Source: Mesorhizobium sp. WSM4904 (lineage in GTDB: Bacteria; Pseudomonadota; Alphaproteobacteria; Rhizobiales; Rhizobiaceae). Taken from it: a DNA stretch of 64,000 nt. The DNA is taken from the NCBI RefSeq assembly GCF_029674545.1, contig NZ_CP121354.1, forward strand, positions 5,713,001 to 5,777,000, read 5' to 3'. Below the pieces are notes generated by a model. That model was not told the origin of the DNA and ran no database searches. It was given only the letters and a program-made list of their open reading frames with translations. This document shows positions 45,245 to 63,999 of the stretch, in pieces (positions within the stretch are counted from its first letter, which is position 1; every line of letters starts with the position of its first letter). Both the position numbers and the translations under genes were made by a program.

Positions 45245-45258
45245 TTGACCCTGCTCAA
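45245..45258. promoter_or_regulatory. FNR/FixK-like box 1 (upstream of hsp20, distal)
   Basis: TTGACCCTGCTCAA matches the TTGA-N6-TCAA core of FNR/FixK sites. It lies 43 bp before a second, better site. Confidence 0.45.
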
Positions 45259-45287
45259 ATCCACAACCGGTTCTTCTTCGAGCTCGT

Positions 45288-45301
45288 TTGACACGGATCA
45301 A
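45288..45301. promoter_or_regulatory. FNR/FixK-like box 2 (upstream of hsp20)
   Basis: TTGACACGGATCAA differs by one base from TTGAT-N4-ATCAA. It is 235 bp from the hsp20 start, farther than the other boxes in the window, so a long leader RNA would be needed. Confidence 0.55.
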
Positions 45302-45536
45302 CGATGGCTGCTCGGACCAGTGCTTTGATGCCAAGCCTCGATAGGTCGTGCATGAACTGGCGATGCGGGCGCGACGATCCGCGCCAAACGCGGAAATCGC
45401 GAAGCAACGAACCGGTTCGGCGGGGACGCCTGTCGGGCGGGTCCGCTGGCCTCCAGCTCTGGCGCCTTTGGGGAAGCCTGAGGTGGAGAGCGGAGGCAGC
45501 GGCACTTGTCGATCAACTTGTCCGATGGAGAGAACC

Positions 45537-46076
45537 ATGGCTGAAGCCGCCACCAAACTGCCTGTGAAAACCGAGAAGAACGCGCCCGCCGCCAGGTCGG
45601 ATCACTGGACGGGGTCGTTCGAAAACCTGCGTCGCGAAATCGACCGGCTCTTCGATGATTTCCATCCTTTCGATTTTCGCCTGCCTTCCACCCGTTCGTT
45701 TTTCGGCCGCGAACTGCCCGCGCTGCAAAGCGTTGGGTGGACCGTCGCGCCGGCGATGGACCTGATCGAAAAGGCCCACGATTATGAAATCACGGCCGAA
45801 CTGCCGGGCATCGACGAAAAGAACGTCGAGATCAAGCTCGCCAACAACGTGCTGACGATCAAGGGCGAGAAGAAGGAAGAGAAGGAGGAAAAGGAGAAGG
45901 ACTACTACCTCTCGGAGCGCCGCTACGGCTCCTTCCAGCGGTCGTTCCAGTTGCCTGAGGGGGTCGACGCCGACAAGATAGACGCCAGCTTCGCCAAGGG
46001 TGTTCTGACCGTGAAGCTGCCCAAGACGGCCGAAGCCCAGAAGGCCGAGAAGAAGATCACCGTCAAGGCCGCATAG
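45537..46076 (+). CDS. Small heat-shock protein Hsp20 (alpha-crystallin family)
   Basis: ATP-independent holdase chaperone, 179 aa. The alpha-crystallin domain runs from about residue 72 (APAMDLIEKAHDYEITAELPGIDEKNVEI) through LTIKGEKKEE and RRYGSFQRSFQLPEGVD to the closing GVLTVKLPK. A Lys/Glu-rich segment (EKKEEKEEKEKDYY) lengthens the L57-type loop. Start ATG at 45537 with GGAGAG upstream. Two FNR-like boxes lie upstream, which suggests low-oxygen control as well as or instead of heat control. Confidence 0.95.
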   Translation: MAEAATKLPVKTEKNAPAARSDHWTGSFENLRREIDRLFDDFHPFDFRLPSTRSFFGRELPALQSVGWTVAPAMDLIEKAHDYEITAELPGIDEKNVEIKLANNVLTIKGEKKEEKEEKEKDYYLSERRYGSFQRSFQLPEGVDADKIDASFAKGVLTVKLPKTAEAQKAEKKITVKAA

Positions 46077-46152
46077 CGGCACAAATGACCGCTTCCTCAG
46101 TGCGCCGAGGCGGTGCACTGAGGAAGAAACCTTCCTGAGGGCACTGGCTCGC

Positions 46153-46346
46153 TTACACCGCTGGATCGTCTGCCTTGGAAGAAGCAGCCGGCTTCTGGGC
46201 TGTCTCCGCCTGGCGTTCCGCGATCTCGAGCTTCTGCTTCTCGCCCGCAAGCAAATCCTGAATCATGCGCCGCTTTTCCGGGTCGGTTTCCCGGCGAGCA
46301 AGTCTTCAAAATAGGCGATGTTGGCCCGCGCAATGAACCGGTCCAC
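46153..46346 (-). pseudogene. Frameshifted small rhizobial gene remnant
   Basis: From GTG at 46346 (GAGGG upstream) the frame reads VDRFIARANIAYFEDLLA; the adjacent frame then continues as RETDPEKRRMIQDLLAGEKQ and runs to a stop at 46153. The two halves join into one amphipathic small protein of a type I associate with rhizobia if one base is added near 46290, so this looks like a single-base deletion (or a sequencing error) in a gene of about 64 codons. Function unknown. It is downstream of hsp20 on the opposite strand. Confidence 0.5.
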
Positions 46347-46508
46347 GACAGTCCCTCGATTGTCGACAAGACGCATTGCTTGGAGACTATCCCTAATGAC
46401 CTAGGTATCCCACCCATGCTTGTTCACATCTGCGGTAACCGGCACCAAACCGAGTTCGGGTGCCGGCGCCCCCGAAGCACCTCCCTCGCAACGCCAGTCG
46501 GCGTCAAA

Positions 46509-46522
46509 TTGACCTAACGCAA
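46509..46522. promoter_or_regulatory. FNR/FixK-like box 3 (upstream of DUF2267 gene)
   Basis: TTGACCTAACGCAA has one mismatch in the TTGA-N6-TCAA core. It ends 51 bp before the DUF2267 start, the same spacing as the strong boxes in this region. Confidence 0.45.
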
Positions 46523-46573
46523 TGCGCGCGGGTCTGAATGGCGGAGAAAGGAACAGGTTGGAGGATCACGACG

Positions 46574-47002
46574 ATGACACACTCCGTCTCGCACACGTCC
46601 ATCACACATGCTGCCGAGCAGGCACAGCAATGGGTGAACGAACTCGCCAAGGATTTGGACTGGAACGAGCAGAGCGCGTTCCGCCTGTTGAAGTCGGTGC
46701 TGCACGCTTTGCGCGATTGGCTCTCGCCGGAGGAAATGGCCGACCTGTCGGCCCAGTTGCCAACGCTGATCAGAGGTATCTACTTCGAAGGGTGGAATCC
46801 GGCCGAGCCGACATGGGAAAGGAAGAAGCGCGACTTCGTGATCTGCGTACGCGACAGTTTCGGCTACGAGCCGATGATCGACGTCGACAACGCAATCAGA
46901 GCGGTGTTCAGGCTCCTCGATCGTCACATCTCGCATGGCGAGATCGTCCAAGTCCGCAATTCGATGAAGAAATCGCTCCGTGAATTGTGGCCGGAGGGAT
47001 GA
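46574..47002 (+). CDS. DUF2267 family protein
   Basis: 142-aa protein with the DUF2267 core: AQQWVNELAKDLDWNEQSAFRLLKSVLHALRDWLSPEEMADLSAQLPTLIRGIYFEGW. The family is alpha-helical and of unknown function, often found beside phosphoribosyltransferases, Usp and Hsp20 genes in low-oxygen islands, as here. The ATG at 46574 has GGAGGATC upstream. A 3-bp gap separates it from the next gene. Confidence 0.88.
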   Translation: MTHSVSHTSITHAAEQAQQWVNELAKDLDWNEQSAFRLLKSVLHALRDWLSPEEMADLSAQLPTLIRGIYFEGWNPAEPTWERKKRDFVICVRDSFGYEPMIDVDNAIRAVFRLLDRHISHGEIVQVRNSMKKSLRELWPEG

Positions 47003-47005
47003 TCG

Positions 47006-47731
47006 ATGTTTCGCGATCGCCATGAGGCTGGACAGAGACTCGCGCTCGAGCTCGCCAAACTGACCCTGCAGGATCCGGTCGTCCTGGCATTGCCGCGAGG
47101 CGGCGTTCCCGTCGCCGCGGAAGTGGCCAAGGCTCTCAAGGCGCCGCTGGATTTGATCCTCGTCCGCAAGGTCGGGGCCCCAGGCAATCCGGAACTGGCC
47201 GTTGCCGCCATCGTGGACGGAGATCCTCCGGACGTCGTTCTCAACCGGGAAATCGTGGAAACCTATGGCCTGCGCGACGACGCGCTGCGTGTCCTGATCG
47301 CAGGGGAGCGTCCGGAGCTGGAGCGCCGTCGCACGACATATCGCGGCGAGCTCGCGCCCTTGTCGGTTGCCGGCAAAACGGTGATTATCGTCGACGACGG
47401 GGCTGCCACCGGGACGACGATGAAGGTCGCCATCCGTGCGATGAAGCGACGCTCGCCGCGTAAGATCGTTGTCGCGCTTCCGGTCGCGCCGGCGGAAACT
47501 GTGACCGATCTTGCCCAAGAAGCCGATTTGGTCATCTGTCTCAGCCAGCCGGCCCGCTTCCCTGCACTCAGCTATTACTACGTCAACTTCCCGCAGCTCT
47601 CCGATGGCGAGGTTCTCGACATCATGGATGAGGTTGCCCGGGCACGGGCCGGCAGCCGCGGCAACGCCAGAAGACGGCCGGCCGCGCATGCCGCAAACAA
47701 ATCACGGCAGAAAGCTCGCGCCAAAGAATAG
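47006..47731 (+). CDS. Phosphoribosyltransferase family protein
   Basis: 241-aa protein with a type I PRTase fold. The PRPP-binding motif VIIVDDGAATGTTM is near residue 126; N-terminal VVLALPRGGVPVAAEVAKAL and LILVRKVGAPGNPELAVAAI are typical of the COG1926 group. The C-terminus is a basic, Arg/Lys/Ala-rich tail (from about residue 218) suggestive of RNA or polyanion contact. The base substrate is unknown. In an apparent operon with DUF2267 and the FMN-binding protein (9-bp gap). Confidence 0.88.
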   Translation: MFRDRHEAGQRLALELAKLTLQDPVVLALPRGGVPVAAEVAKALKAPLDLILVRKVGAPGNPELAVAAIVDGDPPDVVLNREIVETYGLRDDALRVLIAGERPELERRRTTYRGELAPLSVAGKTVIIVDDGAATGTTMKVAIRAMKRRSPRKIVVALPVAPAETVTDLAQEADLVICLSQPARFPALSYYYVNFPQLSDGEVLDIMDEVARARAGSRGNARRRPAAHAANKSRQKARAKE

Positions 47732-47740
47732 GAGTTCCAG

Positions 47741-48193
47741 ATGCACATCCGCACGCTTTCCGTCCTGGAATGCACAAAGATCCTAACGGCCAGTCGCGTC
47801 GGCCGCCTGGCCTGCGCCAAGGATGGGCAACCCTATATCGTTCCGTTCTACTTCGCCCATGCGGACAATCACCTTTATGCCTTTTCCATGCCGGGCAAGA
47901 AGATCGACTGGATGCGCACCAATCCTCTCGTGTCCGTCCAGGTCGACGAACGCGGCACGGGACGAGGTTGGAAAAGCGTGATCGTCAACGGTCACTATGA
48001 GGAGCTCCCCGATCGGATTGGACACAAGGTCCAGCGTGATCACGCCTGGTCCGTCTTGAGCAACAAGCATGCCGACTGGTGGGAGCCAGGCGCGCTCAAG
48101 CCGGCGACGTCCTCGGAGGCGGAGCATATTCCCCACGTGTTCTTCAGGATCTTCATCGCGGAAGTTTCGGGCCGCGAGGCGATGGAAATCTGA
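47741..48193 (+). CDS. Pyridoxamine 5'-phosphate oxidase-like FMN-binding protein
   Basis: 150-aa split-barrel flavoprotein: VGRLACAKDGQPYIVPFYFAHADNHLYAFSMPGKKIDWMRTNPLVSVQVDE is the family N-terminal half, ending with HVFFRIFIAEVSGREAM. Members often act as stress-related reductases or nitroimidazole-resistance proteins. Follows the phosphoribosyltransferase gene closely, so it probably shares the FNR-box promoter at 46509. Confidence 0.87.
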   Translation: MHIRTLSVLECTKILTASRVGRLACAKDGQPYIVPFYFAHADNHLYAFSMPGKKIDWMRTNPLVSVQVDERGTGRGWKSVIVNGHYEELPDRIGHKVQRDHAWSVLSNKHADWWEPGALKPATSSEAEHIPHVFFRIFIAEVSGREAMEI

Positions 48194-48271
48194 TCCCTAT
48201 GGCGAGCCCCGGCGGAAGCCGCGCCGGGCCGACCGTTGGTCGAAGCGGTTGACGACACACGCCGTCCATCC

Positions 48272-48374
48272 AAAGCGCATCGCGACGAAACGCATTCCGG
48301 CGACGCGCTTTAAGTCTTTGTTTTGATGCATGTCGTCTTCCCAAAACCGCTGCGCACTTTTGGGCGACATGCAT
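48272..48374. repeat. 103-bp bipartite palindromic repeat, copy 2
   Basis: Same two-hairpin structure as 34534-34636, with AAAGCGCATCGCG/GCGACGCGCTTTAA and GTCTTCCCAAAACCGC/CTTTTGGGCGACATGCA. It ends at the 5' edge of the DUF4010-like remnant, as if insertion of the repeat or a linked deletion removed the front of that gene. Confidence 0.85.
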
Positions 48375-48660
48375 TAAGGTGGCTCTGGCCTCCCGGTTTC
48401 AGGAACAGGGCCTGCTGGCGAGTTCCGCGATCGCGGGCGCGTTCGATGTCGATGCTTCAGTGCTCAGCGCCCTACGCCTGGTCAAGAATTCAATCCCGAT
48501 CGAAACGGTCGGACATGCGGTGCTGACGGCGCTGATGGCCAACGCGGTCGGACGCCTTTCGCTGGCGGCATTCGCAGGTCCGGTGAGATTCTGGCTGCCC
48601 CTGGCCGGCATGACTTTGATCGCCGCGGCGGCGGGCTACGGCGCCATGCTACTCCTGTAG
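48375..48660 (+). pseudogene. C-terminal remnant of a DUF4010/MgtC-like membrane protein
   Basis: An open frame of about 93 codons reads ALASRFQEQGLLASSAIAGAFDVDASVLSALRL, then LTALMANAVGRLSLAAFAGPVRFW and a hydrophobic end, which resembles only the last transmembrane part of DUF4010 proteins (normally about 400 aa). There is no ribosome site at its GTG, and the palindromic repeat abuts it. Most simply a truncated, inactive gene. Confidence 0.6.
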
Positions 48661-48712
48661 CGATCCGCACCGGCTTCGTCTCCGCGCGGCGGCTCCCGCA
48701 GGGAAACCGGAT

Positions 48713-48726
48713 TTGACCCGCGTCAA
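48713..48726. promoter_or_regulatory. FNR/FixK-like box 4 (arcDABC promoter)
   Basis: TTGACCCGCGTCAA, a perfect palindrome with the TTGA-N6-TCAA core, ends 59 bp before the arcD ATG. A site about 41 bp upstream of a transcription start is the usual activating position for FNR-type proteins, and this spacing allows it. Confidence 0.75.
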
Positions 48727-48785
48727 GGCTGCCGCTCTCTCTTTCCTGTTGGATCCTCCCACTGTTTGCAATTCGGGAGCGCATC

Positions 48786-50252
48786 ATGTCCACGACGGAA
48801 ATCAATGTCCCAATCCGGGAAGCCGCGGCCACGGCATCGACGAAGCTACGACTGGGATCTCTGACAGCCCTCGTCATCGGCTCGATGGTGGGTTCGGGCG
48901 TGTTCAGCCTGCCGCAGAACATGGCGGCCGGCGCTGGCCCTCTGGCCATCCTGATCGGCTGGGCGATCACCGCCGTCGGCATGCTCGCGCTGGTGTTCGT
49001 CTACCAGTCGCTGGCGGTACGTCGACCCGAACTCGACGCAGGTCCGTACGCCTATGCCAAGGCAGGCTTCGGTCCCTTCGTCGGGTTCAACAGCGCCTGG
49101 GGCTACTGGATCAGCGCGTGGGTCGGCAACGTCTCCTACGCCGTGATCGTCTTCAGCGCCTTGTCCTATTTCTTCCCTGCCTTCGGTGACGGGAATACAT
49201 GGCAGGCGGTGCTCGGCGCGTCGATCCTGTTGTGGATCATCCACTTCCTCATTCTTGCAGGCATTCGCCAGGCTGCGATCGTCAACACCATCGTGACCGT
49301 GGCCAAGATTGCGCCAGTCGTCCTTTTCGTCGGGATCGTCGCCGTCGCCTTCAAGCTCAATGTCTGGACACTCGACTTCACCGGGCTCGGCAACGCCTCG
49401 CTCGGCACCATCGCCGCCCAGGTCAAGAGCACCATGCTGGTAACGCTATGGGTCTTCATCGGCATCGAAGGCGCCAGTGTCTTCTCCGCTCGGGCGGAAC
49501 GCCGCAAGGACATCGCGACCGCGACCGTGCTCGGCTTCTTCACCTGCCTCGCGCTCTATGCGCTGGTCTCGCTCCTTTCGCTCGGCATCCTCAGCCAACC
49601 TGAACTTGCCGCCCTGAAGAACCCGTCGATGGCGGGCTTGCTGGAGGCGGTCGTCGGGCCCTGGGGCGCCGTGCTCATCAATCTCGCGCTCGTGGTCTCG
49701 GTCGTCGGCGCCTTCTTGAGTTGGACGCTGCTCGCCGCGGAAGTTCCCCATGTCGCAGGCAAGGACGGGACGATGCCGAAGTTCTTCGGCCGGGAAAGCG
49801 AACGCGGCGTTCCCTCGACGTCGCTGCTGATCACCAACCTGCTCGTCCAAGCCTTCCTGGTGATCACGCTCTTTGCGCAGAGCACCTACCAGGCGCTCTT
49901 CTACATCGCCTCGGCCGCCATCCTCGTGCCCTACATCTTCTCCGGAGCTTTCGCCGCCAAGCTGGCTTGGACCGGGGAAAGCTATGAGAGCGGCGAGCGG
50001 CGCACCGGAGCTCTCTTTGCCGGCGTGCTGGCGACGATCTACGGGCTGTGGCTGGTCTACGCAGCCGGGCCCGCGTATCTCTTCATGTGCGCGATCCTCT
50101 ATGCACCGGGCATCATCTTCTATGTCTGGGCCCGTCGCGAAGGCAATCAGCGCATCTTCCATCCGGTGGAGGCCGTCATGGCAGTCGCGCTCGTCGCCGT
50201 AGCTCTCCTTGCCGTCTACGAGATGTGGACCGGCGCCGTCAGCGCGCTTTGA
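48786..50252 (+). CDS. arcD: Arginine/ornithine antiporter ArcD (APA family)
   Basis: Amino acid/polyamine/organocation (APA) family permease, 488 aa, with about twelve hydrophobic segments. Family blocks are [20 protein letters not shown] and [22 protein letters not shown]. It exchanges external arginine for ornithine without energy cost in the arginine deiminase pathway. This assignment is supported by position: it heads arcD-arcA-arcB-arcC. The FNR-like box lies 59 bp upstream. Confidence 0.92.
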
Positions 50253-50263
50253 GAGGTGATCCC

Positions 50264-51478
50264 ATGGCAAATCTGGGGGTCCACTCGGAAGTCGGTCGCC
50301 TGCGCGAGGTGATGGTGCACAGGCCGGATCTCAGCCTGCGCAGGCTGACGCCGGAGAACTGCAAGGCGCTGCTGTTCGACGACGTGCTGTGGGTCAAGCG
50401 AGCGCGCCAGGAACACGACATTTTCGTCGATGCCTTGCGCGAACGCGGCGTGGTGGTTCATTCGTTCGGCGAGCTCCTTGCCGAGACCATGGCCATCGGC
50501 AAGGCGCGCGACTGGCTTCTCGATCGCCGCGTGCATGCCGGCTTCGTCGGCCTGGACATGGTCGACGAGATGCGGGGATGGCTGAACGAGATGCCGGCCG
50601 ATCAGCTGGCGAGCTGTCTCGTCGGCGGCATTGCCCGCGCCGAGCTGCCGTTCGAACCCAAGGGACTGACCGGGAGAACGCTCGCGCCGCAAGACTTCGT
50701 GCTGCCGCCGCTGCCGAACCAGCTCTTCACCCGCGACAGTTCCTGCTGGATTTATCGCTCGGTCTCAGTCAACGCCATGCATTGGCCCGCCAGGCGGCCC
50801 GAAGCGGCCAATGTCGAGGCTGTCTATCGCTTCCATCCGCGGTTTCGCGACGGCGGCATCCCGTTCGTATCGCCCGCAGGGGGATCGGGCGTCAGCCTGG
50901 AGGGCGGAGACGTCATGCCGGTCGGCGGCGGCATCGTGCTCGTAGGCATGGGCGAACGCACCACGCCGCAGGCGGTGGGTGACCTTGCCCGCAGCCTGTT
51001 TGCCGCCGGAGAGGCCACGCGCGTCATCGCGGCGCTGATGCCGCGCGACCGTTCCTTCATGCATCTCGACACCGTCTTCACCTTCTGCGACCGGGACCTC
51101 GCCACCATGTATCCGCCCGTGGTCGAACGGCTGCGCAGCTTCTCGATCCGGCCTGGAGACGGCGATGCGGCGGTCGAGGTCAGGGAAGAAAATGCCCCCT
51201 TCACCACGGTCGTCGCGGAGGCGCTTGGGCTGAAATCACTGCGGATCATCGCCACCGGCGGCGACCGCTACGAGGCCGAGCGCGAGCAATGGGACGACGG
51301 CAACAACGTCGTCGCGGTCGAGCCGGGCGTCGTCATCGGCTACGACCGCAACGTCTACACCAACACGCTTCTGCGCCGCGCGGGAATCGAGGTGATCACC
51401 GTCGAGGGCGCCGAGCTCAGCCGCGGCCGCGGCGGTGGCCACTGCATGACCTGCCCCATCGCACGCGACCCGCTCTGA
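50264..51478 (+). CDS. arcA: Arginine deiminase ArcA
   Basis: Hydrolyses L-arginine to citrulline and ammonia; 404 aa, cytoplasmic. The guanidino-modifying fold shows the substrate blocks [27 protein letters not shown] and the nucleophile Cys394 in [12 protein letters not shown]. Start ATG at 50264 with GAGAGG upstream; the longer upstream frame overlaps arcD and is not coding. First enzyme of arginine fermentation, 11 bp after arcD. Confidence 0.97.
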
Positions 51479-51490
51479 AAGGACCCCAGA

Positions 51491-52492
51491 ATGTCGATCA
51501 ACCTGCATGGCCGCTCGGTGCTTTCGCTGGACGATCTTTCGGCCGAGGAGATCCGCTTTCTCCTGAAGCTGGCCGCCGACCTCAAGGCCGCCAAGCAGGC
51601 CGGGCACGAGACGCCGCGTCTCGTCCGCAAAAACATCGCGCTGATCTTCGAAAAGGACTCCACCCGCACGCGGACGGGGTTCGAGGTCGCCGCCTACGAT
51701 CAGGGTGCCCACGTCACCTATTTCGGCCCCACCGGCAGTCATATCGGGCACAAGGAGTCCATGAAGGATACCGCGCGCGTGCTCGGCCGGATGTATGACG
51801 CAATCGAGTATCGCGGCTTTGCGCAGCATCAGGCCGAGTTGCTTGCCGCGCATGCCGGCGTGCCTGTGTACAACGGCCTGACGGACGAGGCGCATCCGAC
51901 GCAGATCCTCGCCGATTTCATGACCATGCGCGAGTTCACGCACAAGCATCTTTCGGACATGACCGTCGCTTTCGTCGGCGAGGGTCGGGACAATGTCGCC
52001 CAGTCCCTGGCGGTAGGCGCCGCCAAGGTCGGCATCGACATACGCATTGCTTCACCGAGGGAGCTTTGGCCGGACGAGGAATTCTGCGCCCATGTCAGAA
52101 ACCTGGCGGAACGCAGCGGCGGCCGCTTCAGACTGGACGAGGACGTCAAGAGCTGCGTCGAAGGTGCCGACTTCATATACACGGATGTCTGGCTCTCGAT
52201 GGGCGAGGACAAGTCCGGCTGGCCTGAGCGCATTCGTCAGCTGACTCCCTATCGGGTGACGAGCGAAGTGATGTCGGCCAGCGGCAATCCGCACGTGAAA
52301 TTCATGCATTGCCTGCCGGCATTCCACGACACCGAGACCGAAGTCGGCGCCCACGTCGCGCGCGAATATGGGATCGACTGCATGGAGGTTTCCGACGAGG
52401 TGTTCGAGTCCGGCGCGTCGGTCGTCTTCGACCAGGCGGAAAACCGCATGCACACGATCAAGGCGCTGCTCGTCGCCACGATCGGCAACTGA
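51491..52492 (+). CDS. arcB: Ornithine carbamoyltransferase, catabolic (ArcB)
   Basis: Converts citrulline + phosphate to ornithine + carbamoyl phosphate in the deiminase pathway; 333 aa. Carbamoyl-phosphate loop STRTR at residues 57-61, the HPTQ-type loop [10 protein letters not shown], and HCLPAFHD (His273, Cys274) are intact. Placement between arcA and arcC indicates the catabolic rather than the biosynthetic enzyme. 12-bp gap from arcA and 1 bp from arcC. Confidence 0.96.
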
Positions 52493-52493
52493 C

Positions 52494-53399
52494 ATGCTGA
52501 TCGTCGCCGCGCTCGGCGGGAACGCGCTGCTGCGGCGCGGTGAGCCGATGACCGCCGAGAACCAACGCAGCAACGTCAAGCGCGCCGCGTCCGTTCTGGC
52601 GGCGCTCATCGGCGAAGGCCATTCGCTCGTCATCACGCACGGCAACGGCCCGCAGGTCGGCCTGCTCGCGCTCCAATCGGCCGCCGCTTCGAAGGAAGGG
52701 GCGTTCCCGCTCGATGTTCTCGGCGCCGAGAGCGCCGGCATGATCGGTTACATGATCGAACAGGAGCTCGCCAACCTCGCCAGCCAGAGGCTGTTCGCGA
52801 CGCTGCTGACGCAGGTGAAAGTCGACCCGCAGGATCCGGCCTTTGCGCATCCGACGAAACCGATTGGCCCCGTCTATGACGAGGCGACCGCGCGACGGCT
52901 CGCAAGCGAGCGTGGCTGGGCAGTTGCGCCCGACGGCGACAAATGGCGCCGCGTCGTGCCCTCGCCGCGACCTGTCGAGATCCTGGAAGTGTCCGTGATC
53001 TCCTATCTGGTCGAGCACGACGTCGTCGTCATCTGCACGGGCGGCGGCGGTGTCCCCGTCATCGCTCGCGATGACGGCAGCATGATCGGCGTCGAAGCCG
53101 TCATCGACAAGGATCTGGCGAGCTCTCTCCTGGCGCGTCAGTTGAAGGCCGACATGCTGCTCATGCTGACCGATGTCGATGCGGTCTATGTCGACTACGG
53201 CACGCCGGACGCTCGCGCGCTTCGCAAAGTCGGGGCAACGGAATTGTCCGGGCGCGATTTCCCGGCCGGCTCGATGGGACCCAAGATCAGCGCCGCGATC
53301 GAATTCGCCCAAGCCACCGGCAAGCCGTCGGCGATCGGGAGGCTCCAGGACGCAGTGGAGATCGTCAAAGGCCAGCGAGGCACTCGGTTCGAAGCCTAA
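52494..53399 (+). CDS. arcC: Carbamate kinase ArcC
   Basis: Makes ATP from carbamoyl phosphate and ADP, the energy-yielding step of arginine fermentation; 301 aa. Signature [49 protein letters not shown] and the [16 protein letters not shown] block are complete. ATG at 52494, 1 bp after the arcB stop. Last gene of arcDABC; a palindromic repeat follows. Confidence 0.96.
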
Positions 53400-53400
53400 A

Positions 53401-53569: not shown

Positions 53570-53932
53570 CTATTCGCCGAGCACACGGCGCCTTTCTTCG
53601 AACTCTTCCTTGTCGATCTCGCCGCGCGCAAATCGCTCCCGAAGAATGTCGAGCGGTGCGCGGCCGGCGACCGAGTGGTGCGGTGACACTGGCCCCGACC
53701 ACGGTCCACCCAGTCCGCGGACGAGAAGGATCGCGGCAACCACCAATATCGCGAGGAAGAGGATCATGAACAGCGGGCCGAAAATCATGGCATACCAACC
53801 TCCGCCCCACATCATGTGAGGTCCCCAATCGTACCTTCCGATGTCGGACGGCGCCTGCGCCCATGCCGCACCGGGGACAAGGGTCATAGCAGCGCTCGCT
53901 GCCGCGACGGACTTCATCAAAGCCTTCTGCAT
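53570..53932 (-). CDS. SHOCT-domain membrane protein
   Basis: 120-aa protein: cleavable signal peptide or N-terminal helix (SVAAASAAMTLVPGAAWA-QA), one central membrane segment (MIFGPLFMILFLAILVVAAILLV), then a C-terminal SHOCT motif (PLDILRERFARGEIDKEEFEERRRVL). Function unknown; SHOCT domains occur at the ends of stress and membrane proteins. An FNR-like site is 54 bp upstream. Confidence 0.85.
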   Translation of the reverse strand: MQKALMKSVAAASAAMTLVPGAAWAQAPSDIGRYDWGPHMMWGGGWYAMIFGPLFMILFLAILVVAAILLVRGLGGPWSGPVSPHHSVAGRAPLDILRERFARGEIDKEEFEERRRVLGE

Positions 53933-53986: not shown

Positions 53987-54000
53987 TTGCGCGAGATCAA
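53987..54000. promoter_or_regulatory. FNR/FixK-like box 5 (upstream of SHOCT gene)
   Basis: TTGCGCGAGATCAA keeps the right half-site ATCAA and TTG on the left, with two mismatches to the consensus. It lies 54 bp before the SHOCT start and 125 bp before the divergent MFS gene. Confidence 0.4.
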
Positions 54001-56458: not shown

Positions 56459-56968
56459 CTAAGCTACGGCCGTGACGCCAACGACATAGTTCTTTCCATA
56501 GGCCTTGGCGCATTTCGGGCACGTCGTATAGAAGAAATAAACGTCGCCCGGCTCCGATTCTCGATTGCGCGCGATCTGCCGCATCTCCTCGTGCCACTGC
56601 CTTGCCTGACTGTAGGGACCCTCGAACACTTTCGTCAGAAAGTCGCCGCTCAGCGTCGTCATTTCTTCCCCGGGAACCGACTTCGCAACCGAAAACAGAT
56701 GCTCGCTGCTCCAGGGCGAAATATCCCGGCTGAGCACGATGAATTGATCCGTGTCCGAGGCTCCCGCGTCGTCGATATGCTTGCTGACGCGCGAGAACAC
56801 GTTGCCCATGTTCAGCGGGATATGCATGACGCCGCGGGTGGTCGCTCTCAGAAATCGCTTGTCCTTGAAATGCAGTTCTTGCCCGTCCCAGCCTTCAGGA
56901 TTGAACCTGGGGCAGCAGCCGGTGGTGTTTACGCTGGAATCGTATCGAGGCGTTTCATTCGTCTGCAT
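56459..56968 (-). CDS. Conserved hypothetical protein with CxxC motif
   Basis: 169-aa soluble protein that I do not recognise. It has a cysteine pair near the N-terminus (TGCCPRFNPEGWDG) and a terminal zinc-ribbon-like FFYTTCPKCAKAYG, so it may bind metal or respond to redox state. I choose the ATG at 56968 (GGGAAACG upstream) because the longer frame starts inside a regulatory palindrome. An FNR-like box lies 53 bp upstream and groEL is divergent. Confidence 0.7.
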   Translation of the reverse strand: MQTNETPRYDSSVNTTGCCPRFNPEGWDGQELHFKDKRFLRATTRGVMHIPLNMGNVFSRVSKHIDDAGASDTDQFIVLSRDISPWSSEHLFSVAKSVPGEEMTTLSGDFLTKVFEGPYSQARQWHEEMRQIARNRESEPGDVYFFYTTCPKCAKAYGKNYVVGVTAVA

Positions 56969-57021: not shown

Positions 57022-57035
57022 TTGATCCTCGTCAA
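57022..57035. promoter_or_regulatory. FNR/FixK-like box 6 (for the CxxC protein gene)
   Basis: TTGATCCTCGTCAA has the full TTGA-N6-TCAA core and lies 53 bp before the leftward gene, with box 7 only 18 bp to its right. Confidence 0.65.
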
Positions 57036-57053: not shown

Positions 57054-57067
57054 TTGATGCGCATCAA
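57054..57067. promoter_or_regulatory. FNR/FixK-like box 7 (groEL promoter)
   Basis: TTGATGCGCATCAA, a perfect palindrome matching the FNR/FixK consensus, ends 58 bp before the groEL ATG. Confidence 0.8.
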
Positions 57068-57125
57068 GGCCGATCGAAGGAATGGCTGTTAGCGGGAAAG
57101 AGCTGGCAGACTTCGGGAGATGGTC

Positions 57126-58748
57126 ATGGCTCACAAACAGGTGTTGTTCCGCTCAGCGGCACGCGAAAAGATTCTTCGCGGCGCCACCCAACTTGCCGAC
57201 GCTGTGCGGGTGACGCTCGGTCCGCGCTCGAAGTCGGTGCTGATCGAGAAGAAATGGGGCGCGCCTATCGTCTGCAACGACGGCGTGACGATCGCCAAGG
57301 AGTTCGACCTGAAGGACGCGGAGGAAAATCTCGGCGCGCGGATGCTGAGGCAGGCGGCCGAGAAGACCGGCGACATGGTCGGCGACGGAACCAGCACGTC
57401 GACTATCCTCGCCCATGCGATGTTCGCCGATGGCGTTCGCAACGTCGTCGCGGGCGCGAGCGCTATCGACATCAAGCGCGGTCTCGACCGTGCGACAAAG
57501 CGTGCGATCGAGACGCTCAAGCAGATATCGCGGCCGGTCTCGACCAGGCGCGAGAAGGAACAGGTGGCGACGATTTCCGCGCACAATGATCCGCTCATCG
57601 GCGAACTGATCGGCGAGGCGATGGAGAAAGTCGGTGGTGAAGGCGTCATCACTGTAGAGGAATCGAAGACCACCGAGACGGTGCTCGACGTGGTCGAAGG
57701 CATGCAATTCGACCGCGGCTTCCTGTCCCCCTACTTCGTCACCGACACCGACAAGATGGAAGCAGTGCTGGAAGACGCACTCGTGCTCATCGTCGAAAAG
57801 AAAATCTCCTCGCTCAACGACCTCATCAAGCTGCTCGAGGCCGTGGCGAAATCAGGTTCGCCTTTGCTTGTGATCGCGGAGGACGTCGAGGGCGAGGCAC
57901 TGGCCACGCTGATCGTCAATCAGATTCGCGGTACGTTCAAGAATTGCGCCGTGAAGGCGCCGGGCTTCGGCGACCGCCGCAAGGCCATGCTGCAGGACAT
58001 CGCCATCCTGACCGGCGGGCAGGTCATTTCAGAGGACATCGGCCTCAAGCTCGAGAACGTCACGATGGCTCAGCTGGGGCGCGCGAAGCGTGTGGTCGTC
58101 GACAAGGACAACACCACGATCATCGGCGGCAGCGGCGACCAGAAGACCATCAAAGGGCGCGTCGAGCAAATTCGGCGAGAGATCAGCGATACGACCAGCG
58201 ACTATGATCGCGAGAAGCTTCAGGAGCGACTTGCCAAGCTTGCCGGCGGCGTGGCCGTGATCAAGGTTGGCGCGCCGACCGAGGCCGAGATGAAGTCGAA
58301 GAAGGAGGCTCTCGACGATGCAATCAGCGCCACCAAGGCGGCTGTCGCCGAGGGTATAGTACCTGGCGGCGGACTGGCTTTGCTGCGCTGCATCGGTGCG
58401 GTCACGGAGGAAGAGGCGCGTTGCGAAGGCGACGAGCGAACCGGTGTCCAGATCCTCAAGCGCGCGCTCGAAATGCCTGTGCGCCAGATCGCCGAGAATT
58501 CGGCAGTCGACGGCGGCGTCGTCGTCGCCAGGATGACCGAAGGCAAGGGAAATTTCGGCTTCGACGCCGGCCGCAAGGAATATGTCGACCTGGTCGAGGC
58601 CGGCATCATCGACCCGACGAAGGTCGTGCGGATCGCGCTGGAGAATGCGGTCTCAGTCGCCAGCGTGCTGCTCCTGACGGAAGCGACCATGACCGAGATT
58701 GCGGAGCCGGCGAAGGAGCGCGCGCTCGAACCGGAAATGTCGATGTAA
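57126..58748 (+). CDS. groL: Chaperonin GroEL (unpaired copy)
   Basis: 60-kDa chaperonin, 540 aa. It has the ATPase blocks [31 protein letters not shown] and [11 protein letters not shown], apical-domain [13 protein letters not shown] and the equatorial [13 protein letters not shown]. The C-terminus ends in ALEPEMSM and lacks the Gly-Gly-Met repeats of housekeeping GroEL. No groES is upstream, so it uses GroES from elsewhere. ATG at 57126 fits the GGGAG ribosome site better than the ATG two codons earlier. The promoter carries a perfect FNR-like box, unlike heat-controlled copies. Confidence 0.96.
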
Positions 58749-58774: not shown

Positions 58775-59611
58775 TTAGTGCGACATCAACACCGGCAAGC
58801 GCAAATCCGACAGAATGCCTTCCGTCGCCCCGCCGAGCACAAAGTCTCTCAGGCGAGAATGGCCCCATCCGCCCATGACGAGCAGACTGCCGCCGATCTT
58901 CAGGGCATGTTCCTGGAGGGCAATCCCGATTTCAGCCTTGCCGGTTTGGATAGACACTGCTTTCGCCCGAAAGCCGCGCGCCCCAAGCCCCTGTGCAAGC
59001 CGTTCACCGATATCCTGGCTCGGCAGCGTCTTCTCATCCGTCACGGTAACGATCGATATCGCCGACGCCCGCTCAAGGAACGGCCTGGCGTCGGCGACCG
59101 CACGAGCGGCTACGCGGCTGCCATCCCAGGCTATCACGACATGGCCAAGCACCCCGATGTCCTTCGCATCCGGAAGGATCAAAGCCGGCCGGCCGGAGCT
59201 GAACACGATCGCCTCGGCCGTCATCCGAGCCGCGTCATTGTCCGGCGACCAGTCTACCATGCAAAGATCGAAGTAGCGTGCTTCAGCGGCGGCGGCCTCT
59301 CCCATCAGCGCCGGCTGTGCTTTCAACTGCTGCCTGGTCAAGGTCACGTTGCATCGCGAAGCCTCGGCCGCCGCCGCCTCCAGCAATGCCTTGCCGCGAT
59401 TCCGGCTGGCAGCCTCGATCTCTCGGATCTTGGCCGGGAGGTCGAGCAGAAAGCCGGACAACGCGTTCGAAACATCCGGAATGTCGACGTTGATGACTGC
59501 CGCATCCAGCGTGGCGTCGAGCTGCCTGGCGACCGCCACCGCGTTGGACGCTGCCTTGGGTCCGGGCGGGTCCGGATAAGTCGGTAAGAACAAAGACGCC
59601 AAGAGCTGCAT
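58775..59611 (-). CDS. Universal stress protein (two-domain) A
   Basis: 278-aa UspA-family protein with two tandem Usp domains. The second ends in the ATP-type motif VMGGWGHSRLRDFVLGGATEGIL; the first is degenerate and lacks it, with CMVDWSPDNDAAR. The ATG at 59611 follows AAGGAG; homology begins here rather than at the longer upstream frame. It is 53 bp downstream of a second Usp gene on the same strand and may share its FNR-box promoter. Confidence 0.9.
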   Translation of the reverse strand: MQLLASLFLPTYPDPPGPKAASNAVAVARQLDATLDAAVINVDIPDVSNALSGFLLDLPAKIREIEAASRNRGKALLEAAAAEASRCNVTLTRQQLKAQPALMGEAAAAEARYFDLCMVDWSPDNDAARMTAEAIVFSSGRPALILPDAKDIGVLGHVVIAWDGSRVAARAVADARPFLERASAISIVTVTDEKTLPSQDIGERLAQGLGARGFRAKAVSIQTGKAEIGIALQEHALKIGGSLLVMGGWGHSRLRDFVLGGATEGILSDLRLPVLMSH

Positions 59612-59664
59612 TGGCCTCGTCTCCTTCCATGATATACCGGCGGGCACATCGGTGCCATTGCCGT

Positions 59665-60492
59665 TCAGTTCGACAGCAGCCTGTGGAATGAGCCAGATCT
59701 GAGCAGGGACCGCGTTGCGCCTCCGAATGCCCATTCCCGGAACCGGCTATGGCCATAGCCACCGGCCACGATGAGATCAGCTCCGATTTGATCGGCCGCA
59801 GCGATAATGGAGTCGCCGGCCGATGATCCGTCGCTTTCCAGAAACTCGGAGCGGGCCTGTACACCGTGCTTCATCAGGAAGCGCACCACATCGGCCGTGC
59901 CATCTCGCGCGACGAGCGCCCCCTCCTCCGCAGCGCTGAAAACCGTCACCTCCTTTGCATTGCGCAGGAAAGGCATCGCATCGACCAATGCCCGCCGCGA
60001 TTCGCGGCAATCCTTCCAGGCGACCATCACCTTGTCACCCTTAAGGAGGCTGAGATCGTCGGCGGCAAACAGAACCGGCCTGCCCGTGGAGACAATCAAT
60101 GCGCCCGGATCGATCGTCCTTTGGAAGTCGCCCGCGGCGGCGGCAGGCGGCGCGCCGGTGATCACCAGATCGGCCGCTCGCGCATGCAGGGCGACGGCGC
60201 GCGTGGGATCGTCGAGTTCGGCACGCCATGATGCGCGCTCGTTGTTGCCGACGACGGCGAGGAACTCCTCCTTGAGCTTCTTGATACGCTCCTCGAGTTC
60301 AAGGGTCCGACGACGCAAAACCTCCGCCACCTCCGGCGAGGACTCGCTCGGCGACACCAGCGTGGAGGGCTCGCCCGCCGTCATGGCGATAAGATCGGCC
60401 TCGAATTTCCTCGCTATCTCCTGCGCGAAAACGAGACGTGGCGTCGCCGGTGCATCGATGTCGAGCTGGACCAGTATTGTCGTATAGATCAT
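59665..60492 (-). CDS. Universal stress protein (two-domain) B
   Basis: 275-aa tandem Usp protein. N-terminal YTTILVQLDIDAPATPRLVFA starts the first domain; the second has KVMVAWKDCRESRRALVDAMPFL and ends with VAGGYGHSRFREWAFGGATRSLL, the nucleotide-binding motif. Tandem-Usp proteins with this C-terminus commonly appear in low-oxygen islands. A perfect FNR-like box lies 52 bp upstream. Paralogous to the following Usp gene. Confidence 0.9.
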   Translation of the reverse strand: MIYTTILVQLDIDAPATPRLVFAQEIARKFEADLIAMTAGEPSTLVSPSESSPEVAEVLRRRTLELEERIKKLKEEFLAVVGNNERASWRAELDDPTRAVALHARAADLVITGAPPAAAAGDFQRTIDPGALIVSTGRPVLFAADDLSLLKGDKVMVAWKDCRESRRALVDAMPFLRNAKEVTVFSAAEEGALVARDGTADVVRFLMKHGVQARSEFLESDGSSAGDSIIAAADQIGADLIVAGGYGHSRFREWAFGGATRSLLRSGSFHRLLSN

Positions 60493-60544
60493 GTCCGGAC
60501 TCCATGACAGGCCGGTAGATCAGCACGGCCGAAATCGTCTTGCT

Positions 60545-60558
60545 TTGATGCGCATCAA
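60545..60558. promoter_or_regulatory. FNR/FixK-like box 8 (usp promoter)
   Basis: TTGATGCGCATCAA, identical to the groEL box, 52 bp before the Usp B start and 8 bp beyond the stop of the upstream DUF3775 gene. Confidence 0.8.
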
Positions 60559-60565
60559 GTTCGGC

Positions 60566-60991: not shown

Positions 60992-61078
60992 CCGACATCT
61001 CCTTTTCGTCTTAAGCGCTTTCTCTTCCACCGATCGCGGGTCGCCCAAGCCCTGGAATGCCGGTCTGAATGGCCCCGA

Positions 61079-61405
61079 TCATCGATCGAGGCTGCCGATA
61101 TAGGCGATGATCGCCTCGATCTGATCAGGGCTGGCCACGAACTCGGGCATGTCCGGGTGACCAGTGGAAATTCCCTCCGCCAGGGCTTCCTGCAGGTCTT
61201 CGATCGGATAGCGCAGGTGCAATGAACGAAAAGGCGGAGCATCAGGGTGGGTGCTCGCGCCGGCCGGGCCAATTGCATGGCAGCGCGCGCAGTTCGTTTC
61301 GACCAGCCTCTTGCCATAGGCAATCTGCGAACTATCGCCCGCCCAGGCAGGCAATGCGAAGGCGATTGCCAGCGGCAGGATCTCGAACGCTGTTCGACGT
61401 TTCAT
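61079..61405 (-). CDS. Periplasmic c-type cytochrome (small, class I-like)
   Basis: 108-aa protein with a signal peptide (KRRTAFEILPLAIAFALPAWA), one haem-attachment site CARCH at residues 39-43, and the probable Met ligand in HPDMPEF near residue 80. The pattern GKRLVETNCARCHAIG...PDQIEAIIAYIGSL is that of small electron-transfer cytochromes. The ATG at 61405 gives a clean signal peptide; a TTG or ATG farther upstream would not. An FNR-like box is 34 bp upstream. Confidence 0.9.
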   Translation of the reverse strand: MKRRTAFEILPLAIAFALPAWAGDSSQIAYGKRLVETNCARCHAIGPAGASTHPDAPPFRSLHLRYPIEDLQEALAEGISTGHPDMPEFVASPDQIEAIIAYIGSLDR

Positions 61406-61439
61406 GGCATACCAATACGCGACGAATGGACGCCGCGCC

Positions 61440-61453
61440 TTGACCTGGCTCAA
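61440..61453. promoter_or_regulatory. FNR/FixK-like box 9 (cytochrome promoter)
   Basis: TTGACCTGGCTCAA has the TTGA-N6-TCAA core and lies 34 bp before the cytochrome start, closer than at the other genes. Confidence 0.55.
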
Positions 61454-61468
61454 ACTGTCGAAAAAGCT

Positions 61469-63352
61469 CTATCGCTCAAGGACATACGTACCGGGTGCCG
61501 CGCAAATCGCCTTCAAGCCAGCTGCGGCGTCGAACCGGTCGGCCGCGACCTCACGGCTGGAGTAGCGCGTCAACCATTCGACCCAGGCCGGCCACCAGGA
61601 GCCATGTGTCACGGTCGCGTTCTTCGCCCATTCATCCGCGTCCGGACGGATATCCGCGTGGCGGCAACTGAGCCGCCGGTAGGAGCGACCGGGGTGGCCA
61701 GGCTCGGAAACGATGCCCGCATTGTGCCCACTGCTGGTCAGGACGAAGTCGATGTCGGTGTCGAGGAGATAAGTCAGCTTGAATACCGAGCGCCACGGCG
61801 CGACGTGATCCGTCTCGGTACCGACCGCGAACACCGGCGATCCAATGTCTTCCAGATGAACAGGTCTGCCGCCGACGCGAAAGCGCCCCTCGACAAGATC
61901 GTTGTCCAGGTAAAGCTGCCGCAAATATTGCGACTGCATGCGGAACGGCATCCGGGTCGAGTCGGCATTCCAGGCCATCAGGTCGGTCATCGGAGCGCGC
62001 TCGCCGAGCAGATATTCGCGCACGATGCGTGACCAGATAAGGTCCTGCGAGCGAAGCATCTGGAAAGCGCCAGCCATGCGGCGCTGATCGAGGGTGCCCT
62101 CGACCCACATCATGTCCTCGAGCAGGGCGATCTGGCTTTCGTCTATGAAGAGGCCGAGTTCGCCTGGTTCTTCGAAATCGACCTGCGCCGCGAAAAGCGA
62201 CAGGCTGGCGAACCGATGATCGCCATCGCGCGCCATTGCCGACGCGGCAATCGACAGCAGCGTCCCGCCAAGGCAGTAGCCCGCCCCGTGGATCCGGCTG
62301 CTCCCGGTCGCCTTCCCGACTGCATCCATGGCCGCCATCACGCCGAGACGCCGGTAGTCGTCCAATGAGAGTCCGCTCTGATCGGTGCCCGGATTGCGCC
62401 AGGATATGCAGAAGACGGTGAAGCCGCTCTGGACGAGATAGCGAACCAGCGAATTGCGCGGCGAAAGATCGAGAATATAGTATTTCATGATCCAGGCCGG
62501 GACGATGAGGATCGGCTCCTCCTTCACCGCGCCCGTCATGGGAGCAAAGCGAATGAGCTCGATCAGCTCATTGCGGAAGACGACCTCACCGGGCGTGACG
62601 GCGACCTCCATGCCGGGCCGAAAGCTCTCCGCGCCGGTCGGCGGCCTACCGTCGATCAGGCGAAGCAGGTCGTCGACCAGGTTATTGGCACCGCTGACGA
62701 AATTGGTGCCGTTTTCCCGAACGGTCCTGTCGATGATCTCGGGATTGAGCGCGGGGAAGTTCGAGGGTGAAACCGTGTCCAGGATTTGCCGGCTGTAGAA
62801 CTCGACCAACCGCTCATGCTTCCTGGTGACGCCGGGGAGACCGGTGGTCGCATTGTGCCACCATTGCTGGGAAAGCAGGAAGGCTTGCTGCATGGCGTTG
62901 AAGGGGAAGGCCTGCCACGACTGGTGCTGGAACCTCCTGTCTTGCGGCAGGGGCATGATCGTCGGCGCGGCGGCTCCCATTCCGAGCCCGCAGCGGAAAA
63001 GAAAGTCACTCAGCCGCGCAACCTTTTCGACCGCTTTGGCGCAGACCTCCCCTTGCTTGCCTGGTGATGCGGACATGTGCAGCAGCCAGTCTTGCCAGGC
63101 TTGCAGGAGGCTGATCGGCGAAATGCCTGCGGTGAAGGCCGCCAGCAAGGCATGCGAGAGCCGATCGACATCGCGATAGATGCTCCCGGCTTCATCGTCC
63201 GGCAGTGGCAGCGCGGGGTCGCCGACCGCGGTCACGGCCTCATCATGCCCGGATTTCCGCAGCGTCCGCCGCTTCTCCGCCTTGGCGTGAGCGTTCAAGA
63301 CGAAGGACCGATCAGCGGTCGGGCTCCGCTTGCTCTTCCCTGATCGCAACAT
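61469..63352 (-). CDS. phaC: Poly(3-hydroxyalkanoate) synthase PhaC
   Basis: PHA polymerase, about 627 aa. An N-terminal PHBC_N-like block (LSHALLAAFTAGISPISLLQAWQDWLLHMSASPGKQ) is followed by the alpha/beta-hydrolase core with the lipase-like box GAGYCLGGTL; the catalytic Cys is at about residue 360, and the His is in TSSGHNAGIV. WRNPGTDQSGLSLDDYRR is diagnostic. The exact start is uncertain: ATG at 63352 abuts the phasin stop. The gene has a long basic N-terminus. It forms one unit with phasin and a small membrane protein. Confidence 0.93.
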   Translation of the reverse strand: MLRSGKSKRSPTADRSFVLNAHAKAEKRRTLRKSGHDEAVTAVGDPALPLPDDEAGSIYRDVDRLSHALLAAFTAGISPISLLQAWQDWLLHMSASPGKQGEVCAKAVEKVARLSDFLFRCGLGMGAAAPTIMPLPQDRRFQHQSWQAFPFNAMQQAFLLSQQWWHNATTGLPGVTRKHERLVEFYSRQILDTVSPSNFPALNPEIIDRTVRENGTNFVSGANNLVDDLLRLIDGRPPTGAESFRPGMEVAVTPGEVVFRNELIELIRFAPMTGAVKEEPILIVPAWIMKYYILDLSPRNSLVRYLVQSGFTVFCISWRNPGTDQSGLSLDDYRRLGVMAAMDAVGKATGSSRIHGAGYCLGGTLLSIAASAMARDGDHRFASLSLFAAQVDFEEPGELGLFIDESQIALLEDMMWVEGTLDQRRMAGAFQMLRSQDLIWSRIVREYLLGERAPMTDLMAWNADSTRMPFRMQSQYLRQLYLDNDLVEGRFRVGGRPVHLEDIGSPVFAVGTETDHVAPWRSVFKLTYLLDTDIDFVLTSSGHNAGIVSEPGHPGRSYRRLSCRHADIRPDADEWAKNATVTHGSWWPAWVEWLTRYSSREVAADRFDAAAGLKAICAAPGTYVLER

Positions 63353-63353
63353 C

Positions 63354-63737
63354 TCAGGTCGCAAGGGTTGCCGCCGCCATGTCGTCGACGGTCGTTTCCG
63401 CCTCCTTCCGAACTCGCCCGGCTGTTTCCGAGGCAAACTTGGCGCCGATGGAAGCGAACTTGCCGACCTCGTTCGCATAGTCGGAAGTGGCGTTCTGGAC
63501 AAAGTTCGCGAACACGTCGAAGGCATCGACGAATTCGTCGCCGCCGGTCAGTTTATCGAGGAGTTTCAGGTCATCCTCGAACCGCCGCTTGAGGAAGGAT
63601 GCGCCTTCGATCTGGCAGCGCAGGAGGGCACGGACAGAATGCGCCTGCAGAGCGGCGGTGGCTCGCATGAATTTCTGTCCGGTTTTGGCGAAGGGGAGCA
63701 ACTCCGGCGCGCGAAATTCTTCTGCATTCCAGATCAT
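63354..63737 (-). CDS. Phasin-family protein
   Basis: 127-aa alpha-helical protein of the phasin type, coating PHA granules: FMRATAALQAHSVRALLRCQIEGASFLKRRFEDDLKLLDKL and AFDVFANFVQNATSDYANEVGKFASIGAKFASETAGRVRKEAE. The ATG at 63737 has AAAGGA upstream and overlaps the small membrane gene stop (ATGA). It is followed directly by phaC, which fits a granule-assembly pair. Confidence 0.85.
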   Translation of the reverse strand: MIWNAEEFRAPELLPFAKTGQKFMRATAALQAHSVRALLRCQIEGASFLKRRFEDDLKLLDKLTGGDEFVDAFDVFANFVQNATSDYANEVGKFASIGAKFASETAGRVRKEAETTVDDMAAATLAT

Positions 63738-63931
63738 GACGTTTTTCCTTTCGCTCTTGGATTCAATGTCTTGTTTTCGGCTGGCGAAGACCGCGAGCGG
63801 CGTTCGAAGCGATAGCCGAACGACGGGCGCCCGCCTCTCTTGGACGAAGGCGGCTCGAAATAGATCGCGGCTCCGGCGAGAAAGGCGAAGCAGAGCACGG
63901 CGCCCCAAAGGAGAACGTCTTCCGCTGACAC
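63734..63931 (-). CDS. Small membrane protein upstream of the phasin
   Basis: 65-aa protein starting with GTG at 63931. One N-terminal membrane segment (VLLWGAVLCFAFLAGAAIYF) is followed by a basic, Ser/Arg-rich tail. Its stop overlaps the phasin start by four bases, indicating translational coupling and supporting a real gene. I do not recognise the family. A perfect FNR-like box is 54 bp upstream, making this the first gene of the PHA operon. Confidence 0.7.
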   Translation of the reverse strand: MSAEDVLLWGAVLCFAFLAGAAIYFEPPSSKRGGRPSFGYRFERRSRSSPAENKTLNPRAKGKTS

Positions 63932-63985
63932 TATGAGCCCCTTGTTGGTCCTGTTCGAAAATCGCAGGACCGGTTCAAACCGGCA

Positions 63986-63999
63986 TTGATCGTGATCAA
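63986..63999. promoter_or_regulatory. FNR/FixK-like box 10 (PHA operon promoter)
   Basis: TTGATCGTGATCAA matches TTGAT-N4-ATCAA exactly, 54 bp before the first gene of the PHA operon and adjacent to the window end. Confidence 0.8.

Follow-up and report, generated by a model that had tools for sequence, protein, structure and literature searches.

Why should one short part of a rhizobial genome carry so many copies of the palindrome TTGA-N6-TCAA, the recognition box of FNR/FixK-type regulators? The DNA in question, here termed the window, is a stretch of 64,000 nucleotides from Mesorhizobium sp. WSM4904 (contig NZ_CP121354.1, positions 5,713,001 to 5,777,000), and the boxes crowd into it from position 45,245 on. 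A first-pass annotation had proposed a single oxygen-responsive regulon at this place, joining arginine fermentation, chaperones, universal stress proteins (Usp) and polyhydroxyalkanoate (PHA) storage. Motif counts, orthologous promoters and RNA structure suggest that the cluster, termed the island, is probably a physically clustered low-oxygen regulon of the FNR/FixK type, and that its hsp20 gene is preceded by a structured leader RNA that likely acts in cis.

Under falling oxygen, each box would be bound by a dimer of FNR type (FnrN) or FixK type whose gene lies elsewhere. The bound box would be centred about 41.5 bp upstream of the transcription start, a placing drawn from the box anatomy described below. 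The dimer would then activate genes for arginine fermentation, for chaperones and universal stress proteins, for a cytochrome and for PHA storage. The hsp20 promoter, with the same geometry, would feed a 5′ leader of about 200 nucleotides (nt) whose two conserved domains begin no more than two bases from the predicted transcript start. Perhaps the folded 5′ end shields the hsp20 mRNA and governs its translation in non-growing, low-oxygen life.

Boxes of the island and their genes

All ten TTGA-N6-TCAA-like sites that had been named between 45245 and 63999 are present. Eight match the motif exactly (45245, 45288, 48713, 57022, 57054, 60545, 61440 and 63986) and two, at 46509 and 53987, have a single mismatch. 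The exact motif is found nine times in the whole window against 0.60 expected, a count that none of 100 shuffles reaches, and eight of the nine copies lie from 45,245 on. With up to one mismatch allowed there are 23 sites against 13.75 expected, which is a smaller excess than that of the exact motif. The boxes and genes that follow hsp20 are:

46509..46522, plus strand: box of the DUF2267 gene, with one mismatch in this genome
46574..48193, plus strand: DUF2267, phosphoribosyltransferase and pyridoxamine-oxidase-like genes (domain matches)
48713..48726, plus strand: arcD box, exact motif
48786..53399, plus strand: amino acid permease (the arcD of the first-pass annotation), arginine deiminase, ornithine carbamoyltransferase and an amino acid kinase family protein (domain matches), the last being arcC by position
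53570..53932, minus strand: SHOCT-domain protein (domain match)
53987..54000, minus strand: imperfect box of the SHOCT gene, identical in the single orthologue examined
56459..56968, minus strand: CxxC protein, PF20603 (domain match)
57022..57035, minus strand: box of the CxxC protein gene
57054..57067, plus strand: groEL box, a perfect palindrome
57120..58748, plus strand: groEL (profile match)
58775..60492, minus strand: two universal stress protein genes (domain matches)
60545..60558, minus strand: box of a universal stress protein gene, a perfect palindrome
61079..61405, minus strand: cytochrome c, with an N-terminus that we read as signal-peptide-like
61440..61453, minus strand: box of the cytochrome c gene
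61469..63931, minus strand: open reading frame (ORF) of 65 amino acids (aa), phasin-like gene (Phasin_2 at 20.5 bits, under the 24.9 cut-off) and PHA synthase gene
63986..63999, no strand assigned: box in the interval that separates the minus-strand PHA genes from a plus-strand flavin reductase gene past the window end, with an exact motif and footprints in relatives

The gaps between box and start codon given in the first-pass annotation hold on recounting: 51 bp for DUF2267, 59 for arcD, 54 for SHOCT, 53 for CxxC, 52 each for groEL and usp, 34 for the cytochrome, and 54 to the GTG start, at 63931, of the 65-aa ORF ahead of the phasin-like gene and phaC. The two hsp20 boxes had been set apart as exceptions to this spacing. 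Their centres do lie 285 and 242 bp from the ATG, but the nearer box has the usual promoter geometry, placed before a long structured leader RNA. Near-constant spacing, presented as a feature of the cluster, is likewise real but is a property of the regulon, as the chosen start is 54–68 bp from the box centre in 12 of 20 promoters outside the block. Four boxes had been termed perfect palindromes. The symmetry is complete over 14 bp at 57054 and 60545; at 48713 and 63986 it covers only the outer five bases of each half.

Genome-wide, the strict motif TTGAY-N4-RTCAA is found 44 times in the single-contig genome of 6.65 Mb against five for a reversed control, and the loose motif TTGA-N6-TCAA 95 times against 22. 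A comparison of density between the island and the remaining genome had been suggested; it places 12 of the 44 strict sites within 24.1 kb (window positions 45,288 to 69,374) and the other 32 elsewhere. Random placement of 44 sites, repeated in 20,000 sets, puts at most five in any 24.2-kb stretch. The cluster does not stop at 64,000: six of the twelve strict boxes are found in the 5.4 kb that follow the window.

A second cluster, of eight strict sites, is located at 2.30–2.34 Mb near COX1-family oxidase, fixG-like and FNR-type genes. Ten proteins picked from this region include a COX1-family oxidase subunit, a fixG-like protein, phosphoketolase, acetate kinase, a universal stress protein, three P-type ATPases, a sensor kinase and one protein with no Pfam match. 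The FNR-type gene of this cluster, L035, has a box 65 bp upstream. The gene company matches published FnrN/FixK targets (PMC4999443; PMC2908626), and this ties the motif to FNR/FixK control in the present genome.

Footprints of the boxes were sought for twelve island genes in 31 named loci. Orthologues of at least 50% identity that aligned from the first ten residues were used, and 170 bp were searched. An exact box is kept at orthologues of eight of the twelve genes. These are arcD (8/8 orthologues, box centre 65–73 bp from the ATG), groEL (10/10, 56–59 bp), the cytochrome gene (5/5, 41 bp in each, as here), the flavin reductase gene (4/4, 71–80 bp), usp2 (3/3), DUF2267 (3/3), usp275 (5/6) and the CxxC gene (19/30, 58–64 bp). 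The last is divided taxonomically, with 15 of 15 in Mesorhizobium and 4 of 15 elsewhere; its closest named relatives are also from Mesorhizobium, with up to 94% amino acid identity. One of the twelve genes has no orthologue in the 31 loci. The half-sites are conserved while the inner bases drift, and the distance to the orthologue start is near-fixed. Where groEL and the CxxC gene diverge, each has a conserved box of its own, and the centres of the two are 31–33 bp apart, except in L040 and L041, where the separation is 41–42 bp, about one helical turn longer. In our reading, gene order differs among the loci and the boxes stay with their genes.

It is very improbable that the boxes are products of chance or serve unrelated CRP-family proteins, with base composition producing the clustering. 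The genome does have 14 matches to the cyclic nucleotide (cNMP)-binding domain, and Dnr-like members are reported to read similar boxes (PMC2908626), but the shuffles, the reversed-pattern controls and the random-placement scan speak against this explanation, as do the orthologue footprints and the boxes at COX1-family oxidase, fixG-like and FNR-type genes of the same genome. The proposal of one shared FNR/FixK-type regulon is supported by the genome-wide counts together with the footprints.

Promoter anatomy and candidate regulators

Promoter features were read from 29 of the 44 strict sites, 9 of the 12 in the block and 20 of the 32 outside it. The 15 sites left out have no plausible start 54–91 bp away on the chosen side, or their gene is served by another box. 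Starts were picked by us among several candidates, and the set is restricted to the 54–91 bp range. The hsp20 promoter was entered with an upstream ATG that we no longer take as the start; the box-anchored columns are unaffected by this.

A G residue is present 8.5 bp past the box centre in 23 of the 29 promoters; this is −33 if the centre is at −41.5. The summed T, A and T letters of a TAnnnT pattern peak exactly at +29.5 to +34.5 from the centre (40 letters; 0 of 5000 shuffles at any offset), which corresponds to −12 to −7 on the same scale. When rows of seven island genes are taken with their relatives, G is at −33 in 60 of 61. TA is found at −12/−11 in 10 of 11 groEL rows and in all six cytochrome rows, while arcD and CxxC rows are out of register. 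The −10 hexamer is good in hsp20, groEL and cytochrome rows. Activation from about −41 had been suggested from spacing, and the aligned promoter features lend it support. They are consistent with class II FNR activation from a centre near −41.5, less so when the island promoters are taken alone. A box 41 bp from the ATG leads to the prediction of a leaderless mRNA for the cytochrome c gene; the region concerned (61405–61453) shows this distance in all six genomes compared and has no evident ribosome site.

Some observations weigh against the regulon as drawn here. When the A and T of the −10 pattern are required in the same sequence, the peak also falls at the expected place, but in only 6 of 29 promoters, and 12% of shuffles reach it. 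The nine island promoters of this genome have G at −33 in 9/9 and A at −11 in only 2/9. No exact box was found within 170 bp at orthologues of hsp20 (0/2), phasin (0/5) or SHOCT (0/1). At hsp20 the box sits farther upstream, and at phasin a small ORF intervenes. FNR and FixK sites, moreover, cannot be told apart by sequence. For comparison, activating anaeroboxes in R. leguminosarum 3841 are reported at −32 to −34 from mapped starts (PMC7888657).

Cysteines are described as a mark of FnrN (PMC4999443). The regulator had been placed outside the window, and none of the 14 cNMP-binding-domain matches falls within it. Three of these proteins, L032, L034 and L035, have both CxxCx7C and ETVSR motifs, and L033 has ETVSR with no CxxCx7C across its entire open frame. 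From these motifs, we take the first three to be FNR-type and L033 to be FixK-like; L024 and L030 have other recognition helices and presumably are Dnr-like. The L030 gene (G000:C1:5811293) lies about 34 kb beyond the window and has a box 31 bp from its first ATG. Possibly it encodes a second-tier regulator.

The predicted structured leader of hsp20

The hsp20 promoter and leader comprise the following elements:

45245..45258, plus strand: second, upstream TTGA-N6-TCAA box, whose place relative to hsp20 varies in relatives
45288..45301, plus strand: FNR/FixK box of hsp20 (TTGACACGGATCAA), a motif match kept in relatives; centre at 45294.5, 242 bp from the ATG
45324..45329, plus strand: −10-like hexamer TTTGAT, +29.5 to +34.5 from the box centre; predicted transcript start at 45336
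45338..45436, plus strand: leader RNA domain P1, a closing helix with inner hairpins (predicted structure)
45437..45509, plus strand: leader RNA hairpin P2 (predicted structure)
45537..46076, plus strand: hsp20, small heat shock protein, PF00011 (profile match)

The DNA between the hsp20 box and the gene was used as a query against 146 genomes of the genus at E 0.001. It matches in 40 genomes, by our count 33 of them over at least 120 of the 221 bases; among the other seven, two have shorter matches (81 bases; 34 + 43 bases) and five have only 44–47 bases. Some genomes have two to four leader matches, some of them short. No second copy was found in this genome at E 0.001, and the plasmid collection gave no match. 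Thirty loci were fetched from the 40 genomes, this genome and one of the same species among them. The hsp20 gene is downstream of the leader in 28 of the 30, and in all 28 the box is 235–248 bp from the ATG. These form alignment A2 (28 rows), from which L101 and L111, without a full hsp20, were left out. A family-wide search with a model gives matches in 7 of 247 genomes: this genome plus six that belong to other genera. Alignment A4 has 33 rows, made up of 27 Mesorhizobium loci (L085 being additionally omitted) and the six of other genera.

Measured from the box centre, P1 begins after 42.5 bp in 31 of these 33 sequences, which represent seven genera, and after 43.5 bp in the other two. In 21 of the 33, the bases at −12 to −7 read TTTGAT. 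Since the transcript start is predicted at +41.5 from the box centre, P1 begins one or two bases past it. Thus the promoter rule and the RNA structure, which come from different evidence, meet at the same place. Mean pairwise identity among 27 loci is 0.67 in P1 and 0.73 in P2, against 0.25–0.32 in the flanks and 0.78 in the gene.

Within the leader, a conserved structured region of about 180 nt folds into the two adjacent domains P1 and P2 (RNAalifold), and its structure is supported by covariation. In the 28 sequences, 97.0% of the cells are paired against 94.2 in shuffled controls, and there are 39 double changes against 13.6 ± 2.9 in shuffles and no more than 11 when the structure is slid. 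A tree-aware null, in which the observed number of changes per column was placed on the tree (33 sequences, 300 replicates), gives 15.0 ± 7.5 double changes with a maximum of 53. The 66 observed exceed it in every replicate (0/300), and so do the 18 pairs observed against 7.2 (maximum 13; 0/300). The consensus fold is −27.3 kcal/mol, compared with −6.5 ± 2.5 for 100 column-shuffled alignments. A fresh structure prediction retains the outer P1 helix and P2 in the consensus, and not all of the inner hairpins. Rfam 15 has no family over its gathering cut-off in the window, the best score in the leader region being SECIS_3 at 19.5 bits against a cut-off of 63; in six other loci there is no match even at E up to 1. 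A literature search, with most subscription journals outside its scope, named no paper on the leader RNA.

Other measures and loci are less favourable to a conserved hsp20 leader. The structure tested for covariation derives from the very Mesorhizobium rows on which it was tested. A double change is seen in 7 pairs against 4.5 (6 of 500 shuffles), and further pair types number 33 against 30.9 (43 of 500), both being weak-to-moderate measures. The six leaders of other genera form 26–34 of the 36–39 Mesorhizobium-drawn pairs, against 9–21 when slid, but they were found with a structure-containing model, which favours pairing, and so are not a wholly independent test. The leader also precedes truncated hsp20 genes, with the box in L101 and without it in L111. 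In L120 (1501–3176), which is among the six loci from other genera, the leader (43.8 bits) and the box stand before a gene for an APH/AAA-type protein, not hsp20; the link to hsp20 is not absolute. Finally, there is no hint of a switch at the ribosome site: its predicted accessibility in the 28 sequences has a mean of 0.44 at 20°C and 0.48 at 45°C.

What, then, would the leader do? Because folding of the RNA sets in at its very first bases and hsp20 follows at a nearly constant distance, a cis-acting role, either stabilising or as a standby element, appears most likely. The ribosome site is outside the main conserved helices, and a weak two-pair element touches it.

The main rival to a cis-acting role is that the leader is the precursor of a separate small RNA, induced at low oxygen and acting on other mRNAs, to which hsp20 is a passenger. 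The E. coli FnrS RNA provides a comparable logic. The beginning of the leader at the predicted transcript start is in keeping with this proposal, as are the two copies that keep the leader before a truncated hsp20, and the L120 locus, with box and leader before a different gene, keeps it open. However, no T run follows P2 in the aligned sequences, and in 28 loci the leader continues, with conserved spacing, into a ribosome site and the ATG of hsp20, so that an independent small RNA seems rather unlikely.

A lower probability still is given to an RNA thermometer like the ROSE elements found in the 5′ leaders of other rhizobial small heat shock genes. The gene type is right, and ROSE elements have been reported for class A small heat shock protein genes of M. 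loti (PMC3989490). Here, in contrast, no Rfam match exceeds the cut-off in the window or appears in the six further loci, and a low-oxygen box stands in front of the leader. A simple thermometer is also not favoured because the ribosome site lies outside the main helices and its accessibility is near-constant. That the leader codes for additional N-terminal residues of Hsp20, or for a leader peptide, is the least probable explanation and is rejected: an in-frame GTG/ATG does exist upstream in this genome, but the frames are broken by single-base gaps across relatives, starts common to at least 20 of the 28 rows have no common stop, and base changes track pairing.

A broader proposal, which also embraces the small RNA, may be put forward tentatively. 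In Rhizobiaceae, the leader would represent a new family of structured RNA switched by oxygen, with an FNR/FixK promoter fused to its first nucleotides and an ability to change the gene that it leads (mostly hsp20, once an APH/AAA-type gene). It would serve either as an element dedicated to the control of mRNA at low oxygen or, in the form of a small RNA, to spread the oxygen signal.

Related systems and minor observations

The same TTGA-N6-TCAA box is that of the FnrN/FixK (anaerobox) regulon of Rhizobiales. In published accounts, phbC is predicted to be under FnrN/FixK in some Rhizobiales (PMC4999443), Hsp20 is predicted to be under FixK (PMC2908626), and the small heat shock protein RLV_1399 of R. 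leguminosarum shows FnrN-dependent induction in a reporter assay (PMC11784457). The present locus differs in having a dozen boxes within 24 kb together with groEL, arc, Usp and PHA genes. It differs also at hsp20, where the box is 242 bp from the start with a structured leader, whereas the RLV_1399 box is centred 87.5 bp from the start (PMC11784457).

Clustered hypoxia loci are found in other bacteria. The lxa locus of Burkholderia cenocepacia, also tied to low oxygen, has universal stress proteins, a heat shock protein, cytochrome c, a flavin/nitro reductase and a polyhydroxybutyrate (PHB) gene (PMC6127331). The island contains a gene kit of this type (Usp, chaperone, redox and PHB genes) together with the boxes. 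Burkholderia belongs to a different bacterial class, the portions of the lxa account consulted mention no arcABC, and the likeness is drawn at the level of gene kinds. The mycobacterial DosR dormancy regulon has an unrelated regulator type and an unrelated site when compared with FNR/FixK. As a Usp-rich hypoxia regulon it has been likened to lxa (PMC6127331). The island appears to be a rhizobial relative of such loci, and its reading as a regulon is well supported by the sequence evidence. Rhizobia in nodules live at very low oxygen, and how protein and energy are kept up there is not settled. The island offers a compact, testable list of genes under one putative switch, and the leader, an uncatalogued RNA for which start and structure are precisely predicted, makes an RNA layer on top of FNR control directly testable.

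A tRNA-Gln gene (45020–45094) adjoins the island and was considered as the site of a genomic island. This is unsupported, as its 3′ end has no second copy of at least 14 bases in the joined 103 kb. In the neighbour loci of Mesorhizobium, 16 in number and each only about 12–20 kb in length, ARAGORN detected no tRNA-Gln. A fragment of DUF4010 (profile positions 145–210 of 210) is present at 48379–48660 and is also found near arcD in several Mesorhizobium loci. The PHA synthase (61469–63526) is of the class I type, yet scores 521.6 bits against the NCBIfam class I cut-off of 622.65, which points to a divergent paralogue. Past the window end, L016 (4122–5812) has a lone P-type ATPase N-terminal domain followed by an ABC transmembrane domain, with no ATPase domain detected and a box at 4164; these are either broken genes or unusual short proteins. 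Two small ORFs, the 65-aa one at 63737–63931, which has a membrane-like N-terminus, and one of 71 aa in L016 (2985–3200), begin about 60–70 bp past boxes and are of a kind that gene callers could miss.

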